This document shows positions 4,860 to 60,600 of a DNA stretch of 64,000 nucleotides, piece after piece. The DNA comes from Owenia fusiformis (lineage: Eukaryota > Annelida > Polychaeta > Sabellida > Oweniidae). Position 1 is the stretch's first letter, and each line of letters opens with the position of its first letter. The notes beneath the pieces are model-generated. The model ran no database searches and was not told the DNA's origin. It saw nothing but the letters and a program-made list of their open reading frames with translations. Location: assembly GCA_903813345.2 (NCBI GenBank), contig CAIIXF020000004.1, forward strand, positions 1,092,513 through 1,156,512, given 5' to 3'. Both the position numbers and the translations under genes were made by a program.

Positions 4860-5740
4860 CTTTTTTATTGTCGGCCATTTTGGATTTTTCGGTCCTAAAA
4901 TCTTGTCTGGGAAGTCTTGTCTGCGCGTTTTCAGGTGAACCGTTTGGTGGATCAATTTCAAATTTTCAGGGATGATTCTTAGTATAAAAATCTAGATCTC
5001 ATTAGTTTTTTGGCATTCTGGGTAAATGTCAAGGCAGCCATTTTGGATTTTCCGTCCTAAAATCTTGTCTGTAAAGTCTTGTCTACTCGTTTTCAGGTGA
5101 ATCGTTTCGTAGATCAATTTCAAATTTTCAGGAATGATTCTTAGTATGAAAATCTAGAACTGATTAGTTTTTTTGCATTCTGGGTAAATGTCAAGGCAGC
5201 CATTTTGGATTTTCCGTCTTAAAATCTTGCCTGTAAAGTCTTGTCTCCGCGTTTTTAGGAGAACAGTTTGATAGATCAATTTCAAATTTTCAGGGATGAT
5301 TCTTTGTATGAAAATCTACATCTGATTACTTTTTTTGCATTCTGCGTAAATGTTAAGGCAGCCATTTTGGATTTTCTGTCCTAAAATCTTGTCTGTAAAG
5401 TCTTGTCTACCCGTTTTCAGGTGAACCGTTTGGTAGATCAATTTCATATTTTCAGGGATGATTCTTAGTATGAAAATCTACAAACAGATTAGTTTTTTGA
5501 CATTCTGGGTAAATGTCAAGGCAGCCATTTTGGATTTTCCATCCTGAAATCTTGTCTGTAAAGTCTTGCTTACATGTTTTCTGGTTAACTGTGTGACGGA
5601 TCAATTTCCAATTTTCAGGGGTGGTTCTTAGTATGAAAATCTAGAACTGACTAAATTTTTGGCATTCTGGGTAAATTTTAAGGTGGCCACTTTGGATTTT
5701 CCGTCCTCAAATTGTGTTGGTAAAGTCTTGTCTACTCATT
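4860..5740. repeat. six diverged ~163-bp direct repeats
   Basis: The block GCCATTTTGGATTTTCCGTC recurs at about 4872, 5036, 5198, 5361, 5523 and 5686. Each is followed by CTAAAATCTTGTCTGTAAAG, then TCAATTTCAAATTTTCAGGG. The array is the core of the element at 3890-5972. A short (GTCCGTCT)n run precedes it at 4355-4400. Confidence 0.8.
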
Positions 5741-5972
5741 TTCAGGATAACCATTTCACGGGATCACCACTTGGTGGGGACATTTTGTACACATTTGTGT
5801 TCTTGTTTCATTTTTATACAACGTATTAAAACTTATTTTATAAAGCCAGCAATGGCATTAATTTAGTTTGATAACGTCACTTACAAGTATCTATAATAGT
5901 TCATGTAGACTATTGCTGCTTGATTTATAGCAAAAACGTTGACTTGTGCACGTTGGTGGCCCTGCGCCTTTT

Positions 5973-19548: not shown

Positions 19549-22500
19549 CTATAAGAACCAATCATCCTCTACATCCTCCATATCATCAAAATCACTGCAA
19601 TCACTAGCGTCCATCACGACCTCATACTGTGGCCAGGAAAACACAACAGAATTATCTGAATCAGAATCAGCCGTATCTGGATTTACTTCCATATTTTCAA
19701 TGTGACTTGTATCGTCGGCGGCATTAAATTCTTCTGATAGTTCTGAGTTGCTAATTCCAGTTACGATATTTTCATCAACAATGTCGCTCATTTCGTCATT
19801 TTCACCATCCGTGTCATTATGAACAAATTCAGTATCACTTTCGTAACTAGATACACTCGCATCATCGGGCTGGGCGTCATCCACATCACTAGCATCCTCT
19901 TTAATATCACTGCATGTATCTTCATCTGGTGGAAATAAAGCCTCTGCTGCATCCATTGTATGTAGGCATCCCATACTACTGATATAAACCTTTAATTTTC
20001 GAGGTGTTATTAGGCGTCTCATGTCACCAATACACGTCACAATTGATCTTGCAGCACGTGCTGAATACTTGTGTAGCCAGGTGGATTTCATGAGTGTATT
20101 AGTTCGCTCGCACTCTCGACGCAAAAAGGATGCTTCTGGTTCTGATTTTATCCTAAACATGAGATCCTGCGCACAATTAAAGCACTCGTACCTTAGGAAT
20201 AAATCATAGAGAATTACTCTTTCAGATGATGAAAAGTAGTCAAAGCATTCGATAAACATGTCTCTTAGATGAGCATCCACATTGCAAAGCTCGAAGCTTG
20301 CTCCTTGAGTTAGTAGGTATTCGTATATTATATAAGTCTGACTAAAGCGACTGCGATCAACTTTAGTAACGAATATAGCTGTTTTACCGTTCTTATCCTC
20401 AGCTTTTATGCTTGCCCCAGCATTGAGTAATGTAGAACAACATGTATCACAACCTCTCATACACGCATACATTAGTGGTGTTATGCCATCTATATCACAT
20501 GCACTCACATTTGCTCCTCCCTTCAATAGAGTCTTCACACACTCACACTGATTGTACCAACAAGCATACATCAAGGCTGTCTTTCCATCTACGTCGGTAT
20601 CATCCACTTTCTCACCCAACTCCAGCATTTTCTGTAGAAGTTCACAATAAGGATGTTTGGCGAAGTCCATGAGAAGTGTGGTCACATGAGAATCATTTCT
20701 CTTTTTTTGTCTGTCCTTCAGCACTTTCCTGCACTTTTCAAACGCTGATTTCCAGGTTTCAATCGAACTTTTATCAACATCTGCGAGATTTTCAAGCAGA
20801 ACAGCTATGCATTCGTGGTTGTAATGGGATACTGCCAGAGTTAATGCTGTTTGATCGTCTTTATCAACAATGTTGACGCCGATCTGGGTTTCAATCAAGA
20901 ACGTTGCGCATGCAGTTGTCCTAGTTAATTCAATTTCTCGGCCGAGTACAGTTAAAATCGATTGTCGTAAGAATCCTTGGCCGGAATTCCATGACTTTAT
21001 ATCGGCAGCTATATCAATACATGTCTGTATTGAAAGCATCAATGCAGTTCGTCCTGCATTGTTCTGATAATCTGATTTAGCTCCACATCTAGTCAAGGCT
21101 TTTGCAAAGATAAGATGCCCTTGCATGGCAGCATACATCAAAGCAGTCATTCCATTCTTATCAGTCATGTTCACATCAGCACCACACTCTACCAACTGTT
21201 GTATACATTCACCCTTACCTTTCTTGGCAGCATACATCAAAGCAGTCATTCCATTTTTATCATTCATGTTCACATCAGCACCACACTCTACCAACTGTTG
21301 TATACATTCACCCTTACCTTTCTTGGCAGCATACATTAGAGCAGTCATTTCATTCTTGCCATTTATGTTAACATTAGCACCACACTCAAGCAATTGTTTT
21401 ATACATTCACTCTTACACTCCTTGATACCATGTATTAAAGCAGTCATACCATTCTTGTCATTCATATTAACATCAGAACCCAAATCTACCAACTGCCTGA
21501 TGAAGTTACCCGTACCAAACTTGGCATCATACATTAAAACATTCATGCCATTATTGTCATTTATGTTAACATCAGCACCACATTCTAGCAAATGTTTTAT
21601 GCAATCGTCCTTACCCTCTCTGGCAGCATACATTAAAGCAGTCATCCCATTATTGTCAATCATGTTCATATCATCACCACACTCTATCAACTGTTTGATG
21701 CATTTACCATAACCCTCCTTGGCAGCATGCATTAAACCAGTCATTCCATTATTGTCATTCATGTTTACATCAGCACAACACTTCATCAACTGCTGTATAC
21801 ACCCATCCTTGCCCTCATTGGAAGCATGTATTAAAGCTGTCATACCACACTTGTCATTCTTGTTAACATCAGCACCATACTCTACCAACTGCTTTATACA
21901 TTCTCCCTTACCTTTCTTGGCAGCATAGATCAAAGCATTCATTTCATTCTTGTCATCCATGTTAACATCAGCACCAAATTCCATCAACTGCTGTATACTT
22001 TCACCCTCATTACCACTGGCAGCATGCATTAAAGCAGTGATTCCATTTATATTATCCTTCATGTTAACATTAGTACCACACTCTACCAACTGCTTTATAC
22101 ATCCACCCTTACCTTTCTCGGCAGCATACATTAGAGCAGTCATTCCATGCTTGTCATTTATGTTAACATCAGCACCACACTCAAACAATTGCTTTATTAT
22201 ATCACTCTCACTTTCTTTGGCAGCATACATTAAAGAAGTCATTCCATGTTTGTCATTTATGTTAACATCAGCACCGCACACAACCAATTGCTTTACGCAT
22301 GCACCCTTACCCCACCAGGAGGCATACATCAAAGCGGTCATTCCATTCTCGTCAGCCATGTTCACATCAGCACCGCACTCACATAACTTCTTAATGCATT
22401 TACACTTGCCCTCCTTCGCAGCATATGTTAAAGCAGTCTTTCCATTCTTGTCGTTTATGTTCACGTTAGCACCACACTCAAACAACTGCTCTATGCATTC

Positions 22501-23127
22501 ACTCTTACCCTTACTTGCAGCATAAAATAAAGCTGTCATGCCATCAGTGTCAACCATGTTCATATCAGCACCACTCTCAACCAACTGTTTTACACATTCC
22601 CCTTTACTCACAATGACAGCCCAGATCAAAGCTGTCTTTTTATAATCGTCTTGTTTATTCACATCAGCGCCACATTCGATTAACGTTTTCACACACTCTC
22701 CCTCCCCCCTCATGGCAGCTTCCATTAAAGCAGTAGTTCCTTCACTGTCACCCATCTCCACTTCAGATCCACTCTCCAGTAACAAACAGAGACATTCAAA
22801 AACACCTTTCATAGCGGCATACTTAAGTGCAGTACTTGTTCTTAACAAATAATTCTTATACCTAACAGCGTATTCGTATAGACATTTCACTAAACTTGGA
22901 GAATGCTTCAGAAATAACTTTAACATTTCACAGTTATTGTCATCAATAGCCTCAAACACACAATCTCTCCCTTCCTGACTGCCGAAATCAACACCAGGAT
23001 ATATTGAGAGAAAGGCTGAGATGTATGGTGCGTGATTTCTCCTCATGTGGACTTGAATCACTTTATAGGGATCCGGGGGATCTGAAAGAACATTCATTAT
23101 GGCTGTATTACCTAGAATGGTGAACAT
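19549..23127 (-). CDS. large ankyrin-repeat protein with acidic C-terminal tail
   Basis: A single uninterrupted 1192-codon frame. After about 95 non-repeat residues (PDPYKVIQVHMRR region) there are about 22-24 ankyrin units, mostly 33 residues, of the form TALMYAAKKGKGECIQQLVE plus CGADVNMNDKNGM; the order degenerates toward residue 950. A segment of about 60 residues (ARSIVTCIGDMRRLITPRKL) could be a diverged SOCS box, and the last 130 residues are strongly acidic (Asp/Glu/Ser). Ankyrin arrays act as protein-binding scaffolds; the partner is unknown. No membrane segment or signal peptide is apparent. Start choice: Met at 23127, or a spliced start, because TTCTAG|GT at 23111 is acceptor-like and joins in phase with ATGACAG ending at 23213 or with the exon ending at 29275. 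Two neighbouring units (about 21130-21330) are nearly identical in DNA. Confidence 0.85.
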   Translation of the reverse strand: MFTILGNTAIMNVLSDPPDPYKVIQVHMRRNHAPYISAFLSIYPGVDFGSQEGRDCVFEAIDDNNCEMLKLFLKHSPSLVKCLYEYAVRYKNYLLRTSTALKYAAMKGVFECLCLLLESGSEVEMGDSEGTTALMEAAMRGEGECVKTLIECGADVNKQDDYKKTALIWAVIVSKGECVKQLVESGADMNMVDTDGMTALFYAASKGKSECIEQLFECGANVNINDKNGKTALTYAAKEGKCKCIKKLCECGADVNMADENGMTALMYASWWGKGACVKQLVVCGADVNINDKHGMTSLMYAAKESESDIIKQLFECGADVNINDKHGMTALMYAAEKGKGGCIKQLVECGTNVNMKDNINGITALMHAASGNEGESIQQLMEFGADVNMDDKNEMNALIYAAKKGKGECIKQLVEYGADVNKNDKCGMTALIHASNEGKDGCIQQLMKCCADVNMNDNNGMTGLMHAAKEGYGKCIKQLIECGDDMNMIDNNGMTALMYAAREGKDDCIKHLLECGADVNINDNNGMNVLMYDAKFGTGNFIRQLVDLGSDVNMNDKNGMTALIHGIKECKSECIKQLLECGANVNINGKNEMTALMYAAKKGKGECIQQLVECGADVNMNDKNGMTALMYAAKKGKGECIQQLVECGADVNMTDKNGMTALMYAAMQGHLIFAKALTRCGAKSDYQNNAGRTALMLSIQTCIDIAADIKSWNSGQGFLRQSILTVLGREIELTRTTACATFLIETQIGVNIVDKDDQTALTLAVSHYNHECIAVLLENLADVDKSSIETWKSAFEKCRKVLKDRQKKRNDSHVTTLLMDFAKHPYCELLQKMLELGEKVDDTDVDGKTALMYACWYNQCECVKTLLKGGANVSACDIDGITPLMYACMRGCDTCCSTLLNAGASIKAEDKNGKTAIFVTKVDRSRFSQTYIIYEYLLTQGASFELCNVDAHLRDMFIECFDYFSSSERVILYDLFLRYECFNCAQDLMFRIKSEPEASFLRRECERTNTLMKSTWLHKYSARAARSIVTCIGDMRRLITPRKLKVYISSMGCLHTMDAAEALFPPDEDTCSDIKEDASDVDDAQPDDASVSSYESDTEFVHNDTDGENDEMSDIVDENIVTGISNSELSEEFNAADDTSHIENMEVNPDTADSDSDNSVVFSWPQYEVVMDASDCSDFDDMEDVEDDWFL

Positions 23128-36820: not shown

Positions 36821-37250
36821 CTTGACATCTTACTAGGACTATATGACCAACCCTACTGCAGGAAGCAGCTCAGAACTATATTTATAATTGATTTATAAAT
36901 GATTTATTTACATTTTATGCGCTTTACTTCTGACATTAAAATTATTTGCCCCGCCTACCCAAAACACAAGTTACCATAGTAACCATATTTTTGGTCCAAT
37001 AAAAGGAAAGTAAGAAAAACTTGGTACACTACCAACTTGACATCTTACTAGGACTATATGACCAACCCTACTGCAGGAAGCAGCTCAGAACTATATTTAT
37101 AATTGATTTATAAATGATTTATTTACATTTTATGCGCTTTACTTCTGACATTAAAATTATTTGCCCCGCCTACCCAAAACACAAGTTACCATAGTAACCA
37201 TATTTTTGGTCCAATAAAAGGAAAGTAAGAAAAACTTGGTACACTAATTG
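36821..37250 (+). repeat. 215-bp tandem duplication in the mariner 3' part
   Basis: CTTGACATCTTACTAGGACT starts at 36821 and again at 37036; the two copies are almost identical to their ends. This sets the duplication apart from the terminal inverted repeats. Confidence 0.92.
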
Positions 37251-42600: not shown

Positions 42601-45600
42601 CCCTCCATAGTTTTATCAATATTTAATGTGGTTTAGAAGTTATTTGTATTGAAACACTAAAAATGTACGTTGGATATGTAAGATACTATATTTAACAAAC
42701 CTCATGCACACAAATCAGTGTCTAGTGGTCAATATCAATGTACAGCCATTAACAAAATATTGTATCATCTTGAACAGGTATTATATCATGAAAAATGAAT
42801 TTATACGGAGATGGTGTTATCAGAGAATAAGGGAATATTAATTGTATTATTATATGAAGATCAGGCCAAAACCAACAAAAACAGGCCCACTTACATTGAT
42901 ATTCTCCTAAAACAATTTTTCCAACAATAGATATACTGTACGCCCAGTTAATTTCGTGAGTTTTAATTTCGCGAATTCGTTGAAAACAAAATTTCGCGAA
43001 TTTCACAAGTTTAAAATTCATTATTCTCGGAATTCACGAGCTATGTAAACCAAGTTAGATGTACAGTAATTGCACTTACCTGATGTCATATTTAGATTTA
43101 AATATTGAGATTTACAATTACTATGATCTTTGTCATCCGCAAGCTGCATATCAACCTCTATTGCATCGTCATTTTTGGTTTTAAAGCCAAGAAACTGTAC
43201 ACTAGGGCAATCTGTACGAGGTTTGATTTTGAGGTTCGGTCTTTGCACATTAAATCAAGCAATTTAGTTGGTTCAAAACACTAACAATTTTTGGGGATTA
43301 AATCTGCAGTTTCGCAACGATAAATTTTTGCAATTTTACAATACTCACGAAACTAAATTACACGCGAAAAATACCGGGCGTACAGTATGTATTATGCACT
43401 CACTTGAACATTTCTTTGAGAATCTTCACTTTGTCCATGTCAAATTTATGTACAACTGCCTTTTCAAGGAAGGCCGTGGCATAAGCCAATGGTCCAGCAT
43501 TCACCTTGAAACCAAAAATCATTTATTCCATGTATTTACAGATCAAATTCAAGGTTTTGAATGGTAGGGGTGGGGTTAGACTATCTTCTTGAATGTCAAG
43601 ACATTTCCATTTGTGCAAATCAATACACACAATACTATACAATCAAGGGGTAACGTTATATTTAAAGGTAAAACATGTATCAACAATTGCATATTTTACT
43701 GTATTAGGGCTAACAGAGATAATATACATTTTACAGGAATTTCAGATTATATGTATGGATAATATGAATCATAACATACTGTTGCGCTGACACTTCCTTG
43801 TAACTTCAATTGCAGTTTGATTAGATCAGGTGTCTCCATGGCGATGATAGCAACAAGTTCATTGACCTTGGTCTGTATCTCATCAATGGCGACCTCTATT
43901 GGTGTTAGTTCCACCTCATGGTGGTACGCGACTAAGATGCGCTTCTTCAGGTATGGGAACGAATGATTTGCTATAACATCAAACAAAACTGCCTTCATGT
44001 GCAATTCTAGAGATTCTTAGAGTATGGATTGAAAGGTGTAAGGTTTATCATTTAAAAATTTATCTGGCATGTTATCCGACCCAAACTAGAAAAACAGCAA
44101 CTCCACGGAGTAGCAAATCCCACCGAACAAAATATGTTAATGTATATAAAATTTGAAGTTAATCCGTCCAATGGTATTTGAGTTATCAAAGATTACCTTT
44201 TTTATTAAAAATGGCTTTGAAATTTCTTCTGAACCAAATCTCCTTTTCCCCTAAATATCAGCATATAAAATTGGAACTAAATCCATCCACTGGTATTGAG
44301 TTATCAATAATTACGTTTTTTTACGAAAAATAGCGGCCATTTTGAAATTCAGTGGCCATCTTGAAAATGTCTACTTGATCAGAACTTTTTTGTCTCTAGG
44401 CATCAGCATATAGAATTTGAACCAAATCCATCCACTGGTATTTGAGTTATCAAAGATTATGTTCTATTATGAAAAATGGTGGCTATTTTGAAACTTAGCT
44501 CCCATCTTGAAAATCCCTTCTCAAGCAGAGCTCCTATATCCATAGGCATCAGTATGTAAAATTTGAACCAAATTCATTCAATGGTATTTAAGTTATCAAA
44601 GATAACATTTTTTACGAAAAATGGCCGTGATTTTGAAATGTGGTGGCCATTTTGAAAATGTCTTCTTGAGCAAGGCTCCTTTGTACCCAGGCAACAGCAC
44701 ATAAAATTTGAACCAAATCCATCCACAAGTATTTGAGTTATCAAAGATTATATTTTTTCCGAAAAATGGCCGCCATTTTGAATTCAGCCGCCATATTGAA
44801 AATTCCTTCTTGAGCGGAAGTCCTACACCCATAAAGCATAAGCCTATAAAATTTGAATAAAATCCATCAACCGGTATTTGAGTTATTGCCTGGACACACG
44901 AAGGGATGGAAGAACGGACGGACGAACAGCTTTTCTATATCCCCCTCGAACTTCGTTCGGTGGGAGAATTAACTGGTAACTGCCATCTCAGTTATTGGAT
45001 GATTTGTATAAATCTTTATTTATTATGCATTCATCTGTTTATCACATATCAAACATGATTAGAGGCAAATAAACATATAATATCAACCAATACATCAAAA
45101 TTGTTAATATTGACTCACTTCTTAGTATGGTTCTGCGCTTGTATTGATCATGGACGGCGCCGTGGGCCTTGTCAGACTTTGTAAATGGTGTCTCAAACAT
45201 AAATCTTTGTATATTATTGTTCCTTTCAAAATCTGTAAGCCGTGTCTGAAGTTCTTTCTCATCAAAGTAGGGAGTGACATATGTGATTTGAATGTAGGCG
45301 TATCTTGAGTCAAGATCTTTTTGATTCACCTAAGAATGAGAAATATTTTTGATATCCTGAGGTTGTATTATACAATACCGGGAAAAAGACTATAATGAGT
45401 GTAGCACTCAATTTAGTGTATTCCTTCTTCCGCACCTTAAGATTTACAACCTAGTAGTAGCATGAACTGAAATCCCAGTCTCAATCAGGTTTCCAAAAAA
45501 TACTTAACTACATGTATATTGCAATTATTTACAGATATATTTCTTGGACATGAAATTTACTTTAATATTATGGCATTAAGCATTACAAACCATGAACAAG

Positions 45601-48600
45601 AATGCTAAGAATTCAACTGATCAAACATTTGCAATAAAGTAGGAAGAAGGAGTTGACATCTATGAATTCTTGATAAATACATGCACATCTCCATTATGTA
45701 AAATCAAGATACAAAAATTAATGATGCCTACCCTATTCGAGTCTTGTATAAGGCGCACATTCCCCCTTCCAAACTTTTCACTGTATAGTGTCTTCAGTCG
45801 CTCGCAAATTTCTGGAAGTCCAGTCACCTTAGGTTCTTTGTAGATGTAAGTTTTACCATCTTCCTCCTCAAAGAACTAAATAAAACAAATTTAAATTTAA
45901 AATATTGTAATGGCAGTGCATTGTTCAATGTTGAATTGCCTTAGAATATATCCAAATTAAACCCAGCGTCATGAATATAAATAAAATGAAACAAAGAGAA
46001 ATTTGCTAGACAAGTTATATTGTTTGCCAGTCCATGTAAAATAATATATGTCACTTGCCTGAGTTCCATAAAAGGCCACACGGAAGTATTTCCCCAGAAG
46101 TCTTTTTCCAGTTTGCATCACCATGACAACATTGGCATATGCATCATGTAATCGATTGTATGTCATGGTCAATTGTTGAAAGTCTCTCTTTTGTTCATAT
46201 ATTGGTATGATCAGTTTGTAAATGTCTCCAAGCATTTCATAACGTTCTGATTTTTCCACTTCCCGGCAACATTTCTCAAGCATCTCTACTAATGTCTCCT
46301 GAAATGTTTAAGTATTATATGAATTTATAAACAAATACAAGACACACTTTGTTAATGTATTAACATTATTGTTTTTTTTAGAACCTATAAATTCCAGAAC
46401 AAACTGTTTTTTGCAATGCCTCTATTACCTAAGTTGTTTAACTAATTTTGTTTGAAGCATCACTTTTTCAGGAATTATACATGTCATACTTTGTTACAGT
46501 ATACTTCATTTTCAACATTGCTTTCTTTTTTTCAGGCCCTATAGATGTAAATACAAAGTTCATTTTCCAGTATTAATAGCACTATACAGTATTCCCGGTG
46601 ATAATGTTTTATTTTACACCACCTTGTACCGCCTTTGTTCATCAAGCTTACATAATTCTACCATTATTACCTCTGTGTATTGCACATCTTGCGTATATTG
46701 TGCATCTTGCATGCCAAAATCATCTTTAATTATTACCTCTGTGTATTGCACATCTTGCATGCCGGAATCATCTTTAATTATTACCTCTTTGTATTGCACA
46801 TCTTGCATGCCAAAATCATCTTTAATTATTACCTCTGTGTATTGCACATCTTGCATGCCGGAATCATCTTTAATTATTACCTCAGTGTATTGCACATCTT
46901 GCATGCCGGAATCATCTTTAATTATTACCTCTGTGTATTGCACATCTTGCATGCCGGAATCATCTTTAATTATTACCTCTTTGTATTGCACATCTTGCAT
47001 GCCAGAATCATCTTTAATTATTACCTCTGTGTATTGCACATCTTGCATGCCGGAATCATCTTTAATTATTACCTCAGTGTATTGCACATCTTGCATGCCA
47101 GAATCATCTTTAATTATTACATCAGTGTATTGCACATCTTGAATGCCAGAATCATCTTTAATTATTACCTCTGTGTATTGCACATCTTGCATGGTGGAAT
47201 CATCTTTAATTATTACCTCAGTGTATTGCACATCTTGCATGCCAGAATCATCTTTAATTATTACCTCTTTGTATTGCACATCTTGCATGCCGGAATCATC
47301 TTTAATTATTACCTCTGTGTATTGCCCATCTTGCATGGTGAAATCATCTTTAATTATTACCTCAGTGTATTGCACATCTTGCATGCCAGAATCATCTTTA
47401 ATTATTACCTCTGTGTATTGCACATCTTGAATGCCGGAATCATCTTTAATTATTACCTCAGTGTATTGCACATCTTGCATGCCAGAATCATCTTTAATTA
47501 TTACCTCTGTGTATTGCACATCTTGAATGCCGGAATCATCTTTAATTATTACCTCTGTGTATTGCACATCTTGAATGCCGGAATCATCTTTAATTATTAC
47601 CTCAGTGTATTGCACATCTTGCATGCCAGAATCATCTTTAATTATTACATCAGTGTATTGCACATCTTGAATGCCAGAATCATCTTTAAATATTACCTCT
47701 GAGTATTGCACATCTTGCATGCCAAAATCATCTTTTATTATTACCTCTGTGTATTGCACATCTTGCATGCCGGAATCATCTTTAATTCCCATCTCATCAG
47801 TCTCAATGTTGGCTGAGATTTTCTTAAATGCTGAGCATCCCTGAGGGTAGGAACCTTAAATGGAAGAACTCAATTCAATTCAGGGTCAACTTATATATTC
47901 AAATAACAATTAATTTAATAGCCTCACCGCCAGAGCTGAAGTATATTTGAATATTTCAAGATTGAAATTAAATGAATGAGAAATGCATCCCACTTCAAAC
48001 AAATGCACAATAAATCGAAGGTCTAATTTGACTTTAATTTTTGAATAACTTCTCATGGGAGTTAAGCAGAATTATCTGAACAATTTAATTCTAGCCAGTC
48101 CATTAGAATTTAGACAACAAAAATTAGTAACTCAATTTTTTCACAAAATTCCATTCAAGGCAGTGGAATCCCTGAGAATGCTGGAAGCATGGAATAAATT
48201 AAAAATGCTCATTACATATTCTAAAGATTCAAAGCTTATCTAAGTGGTTTGAATTAAGCCAAGTTTATACATTAAAAACAAGTCACTGTATTTAAAGCCC
48301 ATATCAGAAACAAAACATTCTGTGATCTATCTAGTACACAATAAAATAAAACATTTATACAAATATAAATAGGAAATAAAGTAAATAATCTAATAAATCA
48401 TATTTTAAAACTAAAGGTCATCAAACACAGGCCAACATGTAGCCAAGATTTGCAAAGGGAGGGAGGGGGTTCACTTTTGACAACTTTGGGCCGAAAATTG
48501 GCCAAAATCACAATTGTGCTTGAACCCCTGAATGCCCCCCCCCCCTACAGGCCTGAAACACATATTCAAAATATGTCATGGTCACTTGTTCTTGATTGAC

Positions 48601-51600: not shown

Positions 51601-54600
51601 TAATATATCAGGCTATAATTTTTATATTTAACTATGATAAATTACTAAACAACATTTAGTGAAGTAAGCAGAACCCGATAAGCAAATATACATGTAGTAC
51701 GCAAAACACCAATTAATTTTTCTTAATGGTTCAACATTCTTCAATCTTATCTAACTTATATAGAGGTAACCATAGCAACAATTCTTCAACCATATCTATG
51801 CAAAACAACAACATTGGAAGCTGTTACGTTAATTTAACTTACTCCTCAATTTGCCTTGTTATAAAAAATATCAAAGAATTATAGAAAGTGCATAAAAGTT
51901 ACAACTGCATCAAATACTTGATTCATTATGAATAAGGAAGGAAAATAAGAAAGTTATTTCAGCGTTAAATCATGTTCAGCAAAATCTTAAGGACTCTAAA
52001 GAGAGATTTACAGCATTGTTTCGAATCACTGCTATTAACAATCACTTATCTAGATTCAATCATCAAAATATCAAGAGATCAAATCATTTCAAAAATGCCA
52101 GATGAAATGCAATCTTAGTTCTAAATAGCCATGATTATAAGGAATTTCACATTTACCTCGTCTTTTCAAGTATTCAGCAACCAAAGCAGCTTCGTGAAGA
52201 TAGCAATGTGCAGCCTGGAAATTAAAATGCAAAAATAGTGAAAGATTTTTTGCGTGCTATGGAGGTGCTATGGTATTTTGTGCTTTTCACAAGCTTTGGA
52301 AAATTCGCTAAATTTTATAACTCCAAAATTCCATTTGTTCAAACTCACAAAATATAATATTTTTGCGGTAATTATTTCCCGTAATTTTTTTAGAAATCGC
52401 CGACTTTAAAAAAAATAAACAGAGTCAATTATATGTTGGAGTGCAATATTCCTAAATGAGTTATTTCGTACGGAAAGCGAAAGGGGATATACCACAGAAT
52501 TTAAAATTCAATGGAGTTTTAACATGGGAGTGATATCACACACCGCGGCCCAGTCAGATATATTTCTGCGCACTTTATTTATTTAATTCACTTTGCACAA
52601 CGCGCCCCCTGTAATTCATTCAGTGCGCAATTAAAAATTGTTTATGAGTGATATCGCACACCGCGGTCCAGTAAGATCGATTTCTGCGCACTTTATTTAT
52701 TAACACACTCAAAATATCGCGCTGAAGCTTGTATATGCTGGCGCGATGTAATTATAGTTTTCTGTTAATAAATGCCCAACAAGAAAGGGTAGCACAACGA
52801 ATTCAACTTTTTTCGAAAGACTGCAGACTTGACCTGCGAAATTGTAATTTTGGATCACAGTGATGCCTCTAGAGAGGATATCTATGAGAATTACAGATTA
52901 TAGTGCACAGAATTATAAAGTCAAACTGACCTCAAAATGGTAGTACACAGTGTACACTGCCATCTTTCAATAAAGTAACTACAGACCTTCGTATACAAAA
53001 TACCAGAATGATTGATGTAATACCTGTATACCATTTCTTCTGGGAGAAGGAAAGTTCCTATATGTATTCCATGGCCGTAGCCAGGGGGCCTCACCGCCCT
53101 CCCCCTTGCCAAATATTCGTTCAAAATCATGCAGTTTTTCACCATTCTTAGCACTTTTCGCATGATTTTTTTTGCCATAACTGTCAAAAAGCTCCCCCCT
53201 CTTGGCAAAATCTCCCCCTTGGTAAAACCACTCCCCCAGGTTAATCCAGGATACGGGTCTGTATTCTTAGACGAGATTGTTCAAGAACATAAGGTAGACA
53301 TAAGTGCCACCTGTTAAAAGCTAGGAGATCTTTTCTAAGTTATTAAGTCATCAATCAGCAGACTGGTAATTGTATCCCCCACCCACTTCAAACTCCATAC
53401 ACTAACATAGTATTACAATTTTATCTGTGTTTATTTGACTGTAGAAGGTGTACATCCATAGCATTGAATTGCATTTCATTGCATTGTATTGTATTGTATA
53501 GCACATCATTGTATTGTATTGTACTGCATTTTATTGTATTGCACTGCATTGTATTGTATTGCACTGCATTGTATTCTATTGCATTATATTGTACTGTATT
53601 GCACTGTATTATATTATATTGCACTGCAATGTACTTTATTGCACTGCATTGTATTGTACTGCAGTGTACTACATTGTATTGCGCTGCATTGTATTGTATT
53701 GCACTGCATTATAATGTATTGCACTGTACCACATTGTGTTGCACTGCATTGTATTACACTGCATTGTTTTGAATTGCACTGCAATATATTGCACTGCACC
53801 ATATTGTATTGCATTACATTGCAGTGCACTGCATTGTATTATATTGCACTGTATTGTATTGCACAGTATTGTATTGCATTGTCTTGAATTACACTGCATT
53901 TTATTACACTGCATTGTATTTTATTGCACAGCATTGATTTGTATTGCACTGTATTGTATTGCATTGTATTGAATTGCACTGTATTGTATTTTATTGCACT
54001 GCATTGCACTACATTGTATTGCACTGCACTGAACTGCGATGTATTGTATTGCACTGTATTGTATTGCACTGCACTGAACTGCGATGTATTGCATTGCACT
54101 GTATTGTATTGCACTGCACTGTATTGAACTGTGATGTATTGTATTGCACTGTATTGTATTGAATTGTATTGAATTGCACTGTAATGTATTTTATTGCACT
54201 GCATTGCACTACATTGTATTGCACTGCACTGAACTGCGATGTATTGTATTGCACTGTATTGTATTGCACTGAACTGCGATGTATTGTATTGCACTGTATT
54301 GTATTGCACTGCACTGTATTGAACTGCGATGTATTGTATTGCACTGTATTGTATTGCACTGCACTGTATTGAACTGCGATGTATTGTATTGCACTGCATT
54401 GTATTGCACTGTACCACATTGTATTGCACTGCATTGTATTGAAATGAACTACATTGTAACTGTATTGTGTTTTATTGCACTACATTGTATTGCACTGTAT
54501 TGAACTGCGATGTATTGTATTGCACTGCATTGTATTGCACTGTGCCACATTGTGTTGCACTGTATTGTATTACACTGCATTGCTTTGTATTGCACAGCAA

Positions 54601-57600
54601 TATATTGCACTGCACCATATTGTATTGCACTGCATTGAAATGTACTGCATTGTATTATATTGCACTGTATTGTATTGCACAGTATTGTATTGCATTGTCT
54701 TGATTTACACTGCATTTTATTACACTGCATTGTATTTTATTGCAGTGTAATGTATTGTATTGCACAACATTGTATTGTATTGCACTGTGTTGTATTGCAT
54801 TGTTTTGAATTGCACTGTATTGTATTTTATTGCACTGCATTGCACTACATTGTATTGCACTGTATTGAACTGCGATGTATTGTATTGCACTGCATTGTAT
54901 TGCACTGTACCACATTGTATTGCACTGCATTGTATTGAAATGAACTACATTGTATTGCACTGCACGGCATTGTTTTGCACTGTATTGCATTGCACTGCAT
55001 TGTATTGCATTATATTGCACTGTATTGTATTGCATCGTATTGCACTGCATTTTATTGTATTATATTGCACTACATTGTATTGTATCATATTGCACTGCAT
55101 TTTATGCATCATATAACACTGCTTTGTATTGCATCATATTACACTACATTGTATTGCATCATATTGCACTGCATTGTATTGCATCATATTGCTCTGCATT
55201 GTATTGCATCATATTGCACCGCATTGTATTACATCATATTGCACCACATTGTATTGCATCATATTGCACTGCATTGTATAACATCATATTGCACTGCATT
55301 GTATTGCATCATATTCCGTATTTACCATTTCGTTACAGTTTTATTACATAAAATGTTATTTATAAGATTATAATTTTCAAACATTGAAAATATTTTATAC
55401 AATATCAATTAAAAGATATGAAATGGCCCAAAATAATATATTGTCAATGGAACCCTTTGCAAGGGTCACTTCAACATAACGCCACGTGTAATCTGTATGC
55501 ATACGCCCTCTTTTAATGAACATTATCTTTGAAACTATATTAGAATCGAATCTGATAAAAGTGCGCATGTCCTGGATGTGCTGCGCGCTAGAATCGGGAA
55601 ATCTCAAAGTTCTCCTCGTTAGAGCCATCAATATTATCCAAAATTGTCATTTCGCTGGTTCACTCCGCAGTCTTTCGAAAAAAATCAAATTCGTGGTGCC
55701 ACGAATTTTTATTCGTTTTTTATTCACAGATAATCATTTTTTCATCGCGCACTGAATGCCGGAATTTCTGCGCACTTTATTTTAATTAACTTTGCACAAC
55801 GCGGCCCCTGTAATTCATTCAGTGCGCGATGAAATCTATCTGACTGGGCCGCGGTGTGTGATATCACTCCCATGTTAAAACTCCATTCGATTTTGAATTA
55901 TGCGCATGTCCCCTATCGCTTTCCGTAATTTCATGACTCTAGAATATATATCACATCACTGTACATGTACAGGGTGATCAATAAATAAGGTAAAAGTATC
56001 TGGCATTTTGTAAATATTGGTCCAAACATCCTGAAATTTGGTCAGAATATACCTTGTACATTTCTAAATTAAAACATATAAATATATAACTTCTGCCATC
56101 TGATTGGTTAATATAATAGTTACTATGGCAACTTGAGTCGAGGTACCCGGGGCAATTTCATTGCGTCCAATTTGAACAAAAAATGATAAAAAGCACATCT
56201 TTTTCAAACTGTAAAGAAATAAACATGGGTACCAGCATTAATTGTTTTAATACTTTGTTTACATTGTTACATATTTTCTTGCAAATTTGATGTTTGATAT
56301 CACGGAAAAGATTAATATGAAAACTGATGTGATCATAGAAAGTCTATGACACAGGTCAATGATGAAAAACAATACCCACAGAAGAGATTTGATGAGAGAA
56401 AAGAGGAAGAAGCTAAGACTAAGAGGCCTGCAAAACGTTTCACATTGCACTGGGGTAATGCTCCGTCTCACAATGCTATTCTCATGGTACAAACCATTGA
56501 AGCACTGGGTTTCCCACTATTAGGTCATGTACTATACTCTCCTAACTTGTCCCTTTATGATTTTACCGTCATGGTGAGCTGAAGAGGGAGTTGAGAGAGT
56601 TTCTCAAGGGATGACTTGAAGCCAGCTGTCTTGAAATTTTGCAGGCTATGGGAAAATGGGTTTAAAAGGTGTTCAAAGACTGGAGTAGAAGACATGAACT
56701 ATATGTTAAAAAACATTAAGTAGCAGTTATGAAGTATGAAATAAGAATATGATATGCCATTTTAATTGTGATTTGAAATATATTATCAAAAGTGTTTCGA
56801 CTGAAAATTTAGTTTTTTGATAGTTGCCCCGGGTCTTCATGCTTTCTGTTGCTATGGCAACTATAACTTCAACCAATCACATCACTTTGATCTGTAACTT
56901 GATATATCAATTCAATAATGTTTGAACATTATTCTGTGCAAATTTTATGAGGATTGGGTAAAATCTGAAGAAATGCCAGATACTTTTACCTTATTTATTG
57001 ATCACCCTGTATATACCATTGACATTATCAAATGACAAACAATTGATTTATCGCTAAATTATTTTGAATTTCAGTTGAAGGTGGCTATTTTGGACTTTCT
57101 GAGACATGAACAAGAAAAACATGTACTACATGCAATACATACCCTTAGTTTCAATCAGTTTAAATAAGACAGGAAACAAGTTTGGTTTTCATAGTTCTAC
57201 ACAAATCAATTAATTTTTTTCCTACCTCTGAATGGTTTCCATGGTTGGTGTGTATCCGGGCCATACTGTCAAGCCATGTTTTCCTCAACTCTGGAGTGCT
57301 GGCATATGACTTGGCCAGGCTATATTGGAGGTCGACCAACATCTCAGGGTCATTTTGATGCTCCTTCATTTGGGATGTGGCCATCAACACTGTGCGGATA
57401 CGTTTTGTAAGGTCCTTTACTTCTGTTGGGAACCGTGTTTTCTGTAAAATAGAATTATGACCATATAAAGTCTATCAACATTGTGCGGATACGTTTTGTA
57501 AGGTCCTTTACTTCTGTTGGGAACCGTGTTTTCTGTAAAATAGAATTATGACCATATAAAGTCTATCAACATTGTGCGGATACGTTTTGTAAGGTCCTTT

Positions 57601-60600
57601 ACTTCTGTTGGGAACCGTGTTTTCTGTAAAATAGAATTATGACCATATAAAGTCTATCAACATTGTGCGGATACGTTTTGTAAGGTCCTTTACTTCTGTT
57701 GGGAACCGTGTTTTCTGTAAAATAGAATTATGACCATATAAAGTCTATCAACATTGTGCGGATACGTTTTGTAAGGTCCTTTACTTCTGTTGGGAACCGT
57801 GTTTTCTGTAAAATAGAATTATGACCATATAAAGTCTATCAACATTGTGCGGATACGTTTTGTAAGGTCCTTCACTTCTGTTGGGAACCGTGTTTTCTGT
57901 AAAATAGAATAATGAATATTTGTTTTATTGGTTTTAATAAAAAGCCTTTAACCATATACAGTCTACAGTGTACCCTATACATTGGTATTGTTGATTACAT
58001 ATGAAATGTGGCCATCAAAACTATGTGAATAAGTAGGCATATTTCTATTGTAAGTTAAAATAAAAATTATGATATTGTGTTCTAATATTGTGTCCTGATT
58101 GGCCAATGATGTGGAAAACACGAAGCTTCACTCAGAGAATGAAATATTATTTCGCAATACTGCATCTGTGTTATGATCACAAAAATGAATTTAAATTGAA
58201 GAAGTTTATTCATTTGTCTAGACTTACTTTGTTATCATATACACTGCAATGGATCCAGGCACCAATGAGACTAGACTGGATTTATTCAACAATAAAAATT
58301 TTATTTTATTTTCAGATCTTTTTACTTCCTCCTTAATTCAATAAATGTCATGCATTCAAAAAGCTTTTAATTATACTTCTACCTAATTGAGTTATTCATA
58401 ATTATATGTGATTTGTTCCCATTACATTTATCCATGTAAAATGTCACACCATTATGCATATAACACCATTATGGAACCACGTGGACTATCTAGGATGTAC
58501 CTAAGGAGGATTGGAAGCCGTTATTCAAACTTGATACTCCGTTGCCCGGCATGGGCCAATTCGGTAACAAATTACTCATATTTTGAAGACAAGAAGTGCC
58601 AATGAAACTCAAATATTAGCATAATATTTGTAATGTACATCTTCTAACAAAAAACTTGGTCAAAAGAGAATTTCACTGAAACATTTTTACTAAATTGTTC
58701 CATGCCAGGCAATGGAGTATCGAGTTTGAATAATGGCTGCCAATCCTCCTTGGGATGTACCTGATTAATTACATGAATATTATCACCCACACCATACTTT
58801 TGAACTTGGTAATAAATCATGAAATTGTAAAAGACTGACTGGTTATAACAAATCAAAAATTGCAAAATATAAAGAGTTCAATCTATGAACACTTCCCTAA
58901 TACAATTCTAAGACCTTAACCTACCTAAAATTCTATCAAGCTTGGAGTGTACTACACATGTTTCTTACTATAGCAAACGCCCTCAAGTAAGGTCAATTAT
59001 AACATACCTATGATGATGTATAGTGCAAAGTGTACACAAGACAGCGGGCCAATATAAGTTTTGAAAAGCCCGCGCCCGCTAACTTTCTGATTGGTCAAGG
59101 CGCTGACGTCATAACCAATCAAACTGCGCGAGCAATTTTTCTAAACTCATTTCAATCATTTTCAAATCATTTGTTTGTCAATTCTATAAGAAAAGGGTAC
59201 TCTCTGACCAGTCTACATCATCATAGGTATGTTATAAATCGTTTATGTCACTATCGTGGCACATATGCCCTCGGTTCTCAGAGATCAATGTCCCTCCCAA
59301 GGTCGGGCCATATATCACTGAGACCTCGGGCATATATGCCACGATAGTGACATAACCTCTAATTCAAGCAAACATTTTCCATAGAAATACATATGAATGC
59401 CTGTTTTTAATTATTAATGCATGTGAATTGTTTGTACATAATGCCTATGAATAGATTAGCATTGGCGCATTAATCCATTATACTCTGCCAAAGCAACCTC
59501 AATGAAAGTCAACTTGAATATTCAACACCTGGACACCTCGTAAACAAAAATAATAAATCTTCAAAAATTCTCAAGATTAACCAAGGCTGTTTTCTATTTT
59601 GTAATGTACATGAATCAATGTTGACAATGAGTAATCTACACTTATATACATGTCTTATTTTGTTTACTATATTGTTTATATAGTTGAAGATTTATGGTAT
59701 ACGAGATATGTCAGATAAAACTTCAATTGTTATATACACAAAATTTCAGTTGAATTGAAGAATATTTAAGAAAGTTAGAGCATTTAGTGCATTACTTCTG
59801 GGACAACCCTCGTATATGCTTATTGATTTATCTCTCTAATCAGTATGATTGTCAAGGGCACTTTTCATTTCTCATGAACTTGATTGATATTTCATTGATT
59901 CATACGCATGTTACAAAATCAAGATATAAGTCACAGGTATTTAATTTACATTTTGACAACAGAAATGGATTGAAATAATAATATCAAAGAAGGTGTTTTC
60001 AATTTTCAGGATGATTATGAATTCTCACTACATCTGTTGAATTCTTACCTTTATAATGAACGTCCCTTAATAAATATCATTATTACTACACTTCAGTATA
60101 TTCATAATTCACAATTAACAGTATTTCAAAGCACACTTCAATATGATACACCTTTCCTGTGATGATAATAGATGTCCCTTAATAGCCATGTTTATTACAC
60201 TGCAGTTTATCCATATTTCTGTTTATTACACTGCAGTTTATCCATATTTCTGTTTATTACACTGCAGTTTATCCATATTTCTGTTTACTACACTACAGTT
60301 TATCCTGATTTCATAAAAGTTCCAAGCTCAAAAAATCTACTCCTACTAAAATGAAGTTCAAAATGTGTATATTAAACCAGGAACATAAAATGTGAGAAAA
60401 TAAACACAATGCTATAAATGTATAATAGAAAGTGTGTATACATTGGCCTGAAAGCTTGCCAATTGCACTTAACCTGTGTATAAAATCACATATATTCACC
60501 TGCAAACAACATGATTTGGCAATCACACTTCCTGCTTGCATTGGTTTGGATTGGCATGATTTTTTGTGTGTAGCATTCATAAATGTTAAGGTGGTTGCAT

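Follow-up and report, generated by a model that had tools for sequence, protein, structure and literature searches.

In a gene which by homology is of the DOCK-D type (DOCK9/10/11) a 48-nt tandem array multiplies one 5' splice site into a ladder of 23 donors, all in the same phase. The gene is located in the window, i.e., the whole stretch of 64,000 nucleotides analysed here, and carries a second array in which a 3' splice site is multiplied. Elements of this kind are known. What is unusual is the in-frame ladder of 23 donors, together with its acceptor counterpart elsewhere in the gene. In our view the donor array is probably an intronic minisatellite at an exon-intron boundary, of the kind called a 'mirage', from which mainly the first donor is used.

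The gene and its exons

Joining exons a, b, d (ending at the first donor), e, f, and g gave a product which matched DOCK10 with an E value of 2.3e-117 in a sequence search. The corresponding values for DOCK9 and DOCK6 were 2.2e-113 and 8.3e-80. We assign the gene to the DOCK-D type on the strength of this homology, its DHR-2 match being closest to DOCK9/10. Pfam matches to lobe A fall on exons a and e, a match to lobe B on exon g. The map comprises the six exons mentioned (Table 1); lobe C and the N-terminal parts are outside of the mapped region. An exon c is required by the phase between exons b and d, and about 28 residues of DOCK10 fall between these two exons. The counterpart exon was not located: between 47841 and 52156 no candidate passed the filters.

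Splice boundaries are marked by a slash in the following. The acceptor of exon d reads TCCTACCCTCAG/GGATGC, with the exon starting at 47840 on the minus strand. An earlier note on this DNA had placed the array feature at 46671-47854; the lower bound stands, the upper one is 14 nt outside of exon d. A GC-type donor, CAG/GCAAGT, apparently ends exon e (46051-46061, minus strand).

Table 1. Positions of the two arrays and of the placed exons of the DOCK gene in the window.
Feature	Position	Strand	Description
Acceptor array	57383-57915	-	91-bp unit, 5.9 copies, 99% matches; spans 3' splice site of exon a
Exon a	57226-57441	-	216 nt when started at the last acceptor; beginning of DHR-2 lobe A
Exon b	52157-52214	-	58 nt
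Exon d to first donor	47745-47840	-	96 nt, 32 codons; family-conserved part (phmmer to DOCK9/DOCK10)
Exon d to last possible donor	46671-47840	-	1170 nt, 390 codons, stop-free
Donor array	46671-47795	-	23 tandem 48-nt units; donors in phase 0; TRF
Intron remainder past last donor	46299-46670	-	372 nt, ends TAAACATTTCAG
Exon e	46059-46298	-	240 nt
Exon f	45732-45875	-	144 nt
Exon g	45119-45329	-	211 nt, lobe B

The donor array

The array unit consists of about 40 nt of exon end and 8 nt of intron start, the boundary being placed by homology. As in mirages, the repeat unit spans an exon-intron boundary and carries the splice signal along. A script listed 21 donors GAG/GTAATA and two donors GAT/GTAATA (the 3rd and the 14th), and all 23 are in phase 0. 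On the minus strand the G of the donor GT is at 47744 in the first and at 46670 in the last donor; each of the 22 unit-to-unit spacings is exactly 48 nt. The script looked for donor and acceptor motifs and a unit lacking the motif would appear as a gap in the spacing; none appeared. This bears out the central claim of the earlier note, namely that a 48-nt array multiplies one donor in a single phase. The note also had every unit begin with the GT of the preceding donor. This is correct for 22 units, which start with VII or VIF, and incorrect for unit 1, the founder. The last unit holds an 18-nt in-frame partial copy.

With a TRF score of 1883 the donor array is more than chance. Assembly searches place it at one locus: a 25-base array pattern, searched with up to 3 mismatches in the 498-Mb assembly, gave 23 matches, 22 of them here and a single one, with three mismatches, elsewhere. 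Compared with the U1 consensus, the donors have 6 of 9 matching positions, the two GAT donors 5 of 9. On the same scale the other placed donors of the DOCK gene reach 5-8 of 9.

When exon d is ended at the first donor and joined to exon e, the product aligns without a gap across the junction with DOCK9 (2wm9) and DOCK10 (6tky, 8i5f) in phmmer searches. The statement of the earlier note that the family needs the first unit only is thus upheld. Because of this gapless alignment we infer that splicing was ancestrally at the first donor and that the repeats were added later.

The edges of the array and the pattern of changes among its units were judged by eye. The exon ahead of the first unit reads GGGAAT and is joined to TAAAGATG, AAT being common to both at the joint. 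Past the last donor follows GTAATAAT, then GG where the repeat is left. Private changes are present in units 1, 2, 10, and 23; the interior units 16, 18, 20, and 22 are identical. The variant pair of units 3-4 is seen again at units 14-15.

The acceptor array

The second array, absent from the earlier note, is the mirror image of the first one and is located about 10 kb from it. It contains six sites TTTTACAG/AAAACACGG, from which exon a would start at 57896, 57805, 57714, 57623, 57532, or 57441. As in the donor array, the units carry splice signals. With any of the first five acceptors, the frame of exon a is open for 25 codons and then meets a stop; the last acceptor, 57441, is the only one of the six without an early stop. 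A DOCK product therefore requires that the acceptor array be removed by splicing.

Is there a coding signal in the donor array?

The earlier note had proposed a comparison of synonymous and replacement changes among the units. We carried it out. Against the consensus, units 1-22 have 12 distinct changes, 3 synonymous, 9 replacement and no stop. Under random change 18.8% synonymous changes and 4.2% stops are expected, and the probabilities of finding at least 3 synonymous changes or no stop in 12 are 0.40 and 0.60, respectively. In these units, constraint is unsupported. Adding the four changes of the partial last copy brings the synonymous share to 6/16 (P 0.06), which hints faintly at constraint. 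As the units share ancestry, the counts are not independent of one another and show little either way. Taken together, the changes among units look close to neutral.

We rejected the open frame as a sign of coding selection. Three of the six frames of the 48-nt unit are open, and on the plus strand ORFs of 228, 348, and 95 aa run across the array; the caution in the earlier note that the antisense strand is open as well was justified. The chance that an array of this kind is in frame and open is about 0.29 beforehand, as it depends on no more than the unit length modulo three and two free codons.

The constancy of the unit length deserves closer inspection. The donor array has no small indel against 14 distinct substitutions. 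For comparison we picked 11 arrays from the 66 TRF rows of the window, the donor array included. Eight of the ten others have small indels, and at their pooled rate (54 indels per 380 substitutions) about 2 indels are expected here; the probability of no indel alongside 14 substitutions is then about 0.14. With rates from single arrays this probability ranges from <0.001 to 0.62 among the arrays with indels. The 55-bp array nearby, with 6 distinct indels vs 17 distinct substitutions, yields 0.007 when used alone. Two comparison arrays, of 91 bp and 31 bp, are free of indels; with only 3 and 4 distinct substitutions they are too poor in changes for strong counter-examples. The missing small indels point weakly to a coding role or constraint, and they are discounted further because a human boundary array, in CBS, also keeps units of invariably 31 bp. 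Thus, the earlier note was right that the unit length is constant while the 55-bp array drifts; as evidence for coding this remains weak.

Finally, a single-sequence AlphaFold model of the array, with a mean pLDDT of 60, gives each unit of the later part one strand. In a fold search with this model 0 of 14 matches had E<=0.001. The low-confidence model adds nothing firm.

Array density and genomic context

Tandem arrays cover 17.7% of the window when filtered for a period of at least 10, at least 2.5 copies and at least 100 bases. At 30 loci from the 144 Pkinase-family matches listed, the same filter gave a cover of 3.5%. The window is array-rich by this comparison, which concerns array cover; translations around arrays were viewed in two of the loci. 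Two of the 12 placed splice sites of exons a, b, d, e, f, and g are within arrays, and 2.1 are expected at 17.7% cover. At 3.5% cover, the probability of two or more of 12 is 0.063. Chance placement of the arrays on splice sites therefore holds only for an array-rich window.

Several other arrays were seen in passing. A 99-bp array at 21119-22604 comprises 15 copies; read on the opposite strand, its consensus resembles, by eye, an ankyrin repeat of 33 residues. Arrays with a period of 162 bp are present at three places (4874-5746; L023, 4-720; L015, 872-1344). A 23-bp array of 35 copies (L017, 667-1472) is positioned shortly ahead of a kinase-domain match. At 36821-37246 a 215-bp unit is present in two copies that match at 100%, owing either to a duplication of very recent date or to the assembly.

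The joined query, searched against the assembly, revealed no retrocopy of a spliced mRNA. Its only matches were to exons d and e and to an exon of 37% identity on contig C1. In the 7 kb examined of this DOCK-like locus on C1, TRF gave no array at score 50.

The host of the array was considered as well. Eryth_link_C, the haemoglobin linker domain, is an annelid family. Four matches to it exceed the cut-off on contig C6 at 27.03-27.05 Mb, one of which passes only jointly with its neighbour. Adjoining, at 27.055-27.081 Mb, are 4 of 19 globin matches. One linker piece searched against PDB retrieved five sequences, all of them haemoglobin linker chains (best E 0.0015, others 0.07-0.39). GFP is expected in lancelets; the assembly has 0 matches to the GFP family in a search without positive control. 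COX1 had no match in the assembly either and thus gave no mitochondrial clue. With an annelid-type haemoglobin linker beside globin matches and no GFP-family match, the host looks like an annelid on this indirect evidence, and a lancelet host was rejected.

Probable origin and splicing of the array

How may such an array have come about? A segment at the junction of exon d and its intron may have been duplicated in tandem, with the three-base AAT match as a possible slip point. Unequal exchange could have spread the segment to 23 units, as the repeated multi-unit variant patterns suggest, and the 5' splice site would thereby have been multiplied 23 times. In most mRNA the upstream acceptor would pair with the nearest donor, i.e., the first one, and the remaining array would then be removed as intron. 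The first donor is expected in most mRNA because it gives an exon of ordinary size, 96 nt, and a conserved DHR-2 protein; the five other placed exons have 58-240 nt vs 1170 nt for exon d with the last donor. The gapless fit to DOCK9/10, the near-neutral changes and an acceptor array which needs removal point in the same direction, as do the lancelet mirages at Adh3, globin, TnC, and PGBD5, for which undisturbed splicing is reported or suggested (PMC3087553, PMC3902484), and the two of 12 splice sites within arrays, a number in line with the array cover of the window. Against a preference for the first donor stands the near equality of the donors; by its sequence the first is not singled out. 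Moreover, in work on duplicated strong 5' splice sites the downstream copy is said to win. The synonymous share of 6/16 and the absence of small indels, with the probabilities given above, also count against it.

The earlier note had left two options, a graded splice-length switch or an intronic VNTR. The latter is favoured here. A switch in which many donors are used would generate a ladder of in-frame DOCK isoforms in steps of 16 residues in lobe A. We consider this unlikely, even with 23 near-identical donors in one phase, 23 stop-free units and an array without small indels (about 0.14 by the ten-array rate) to its credit. It also gains from the boundary repeats of human segmental duplications: for 66% of the changes to introns there, a transcript retaining the repeat is on record as well (PMC2812944), a figure which likewise speaks against predominant use of a first donor. 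On the other side, in frame and open is a state reached by chance in about 0.29 of cases, the changes among units look neutral, and known lancelet mirages reportedly splice normally (PMC3087553, PMC3902484). The features suggestive of a coding role are weak and a graded switch is not needed to account for the array. Less probable still is use of the last donor, by which the array would be exonic throughout and the protein would gain about 358 residues of 16-residue repeats. The frame is open up to the last donor, small indels are missing, the synonymous changes including the partial last copy amount to 6/16, and the AlphaFold model places one strand on each unit in the later part. Yet an exon of 1170 nt would stand beside five of 58-240 nt, the model is of low confidence (mean pLDDT 60) with 0/14 fold matches at E<=0.001, and 358 residues, absent from the aligned DOCK chains, would be inserted inside a conserved lobe.

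A functional variant of the donor ladder may be mentioned. With each donor that is skipped a V-x-Y-x-x-V motif, mostly VQYTEV, is completed, its last valine coming from the donor GT, and we take this motif to resemble an inhibitory tyrosine motif. The ladder would then set the number of 16-residue units in lobe A, and the repeat number could tune phosphatase binding. We regard this as quite improbable. VQYTEV was not found in the literature searched and the literature on tyrosine motifs gave nothing usable. An assembly artefact which inflated a short repeat is hardly credible. Admittedly, tandem arrays are hard to assemble and the copy number is known from the assembly alone. The units, however, carry structured variants, with 14 distinct changes vs the consensus and the variant pair of units 3-4 recurring at units 14-15, and the assembly has long contigs where we looked (C1, 62.2 Mb).

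The locus amounts to a natural test of donor choice by the splicing machinery, with 23 in-frame donors of almost the same sequence to choose from; the six acceptors some 10 kb away in this gene form a counterpart. Should the first donor be the only one used, the array would, for all its striking appearance, be an intronic repeat of the ordinary kind. Boundary minisatellites have been described from lancelets and from some human genes. The present case suggests that they occur in a further phylum, in which they may contribute to the gain of introns or exons; we do not claim a first report for annelids.

Comparison with known boundary repeats

Minisatellites at exon-intron boundaries are also known from human segmental duplications, where they alter the exon-intron structure and 27 intron modifications were kept after inspection (PMC2812944). 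In this they are similar to the DOCK arrays. The variable repeats among them differ: they average four units of 30 bp and belong to recently duplicated primate genes.

Two further parallels are offered by human CBS (PMC2630376). In 844ins68 the intron 7/exon 8 junction is duplicated, the distal copy is used and the upstream one removed. The sites are called donors there, and a title cited in the same place speaks of 3' splice site selection. The DOCK acceptor array is likewise a multiplied junction of which the distal copy would be used; CBS has a single extra copy of 68 bp, DOCK has six acceptors at 91-bp spacing. The second CBS repeat, a 31-bp VNTR designated c.1444_1467+7(16_21), consists, by its name, of 16-21 copies of a unit with 24 nt of exon and 7 nt of intron, and its units are invariably 31 bp long (PMC2630376). 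Like the DOCK donor array it combines an exon end with an intron start in a unit of constant length. As 31 is not divisible by three, a shift of the donor would change the frame in CBS, in contrast to the DOCK unit of 48. Further, the CBS copy number is polymorphic in people, whereas the DOCK count derives from one assembly.

In anatomy the DOCK arrays correspond to the mirages, a name given to lancelet tandem repeats across exon-intron boundaries, both 5' and 3' (PMC3087553). Those in Adh3 and in the globin genes BflGb6 and BflGb9 are minisatellite-like with units of 10-160 bp, and RT-PCR suggests that regular splicing is undisturbed, though cryptic sites could be used (PMC3087553). In PGBD5 the units have 60 and 108 bp, and the Adh and TnC mirages are stated to yield no aberrant mRNAs (PMC3902484). 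The lancelet mirages are backed by RT-PCR, the DOCK arrays are known here from DNA sequence alone. With Adh3, BflGb6, BflGb9, TnC, and PGBD5 the DOCK arrays share the property of being boundary-spanning tandem repeats which copy splice signals. They differ from them in a host which looks annelid, in a 48-nt unit which is divisible by three and keeps every one of 23 donors in frame, and in that a single domain of one gene holds both a donor array and an acceptor array.
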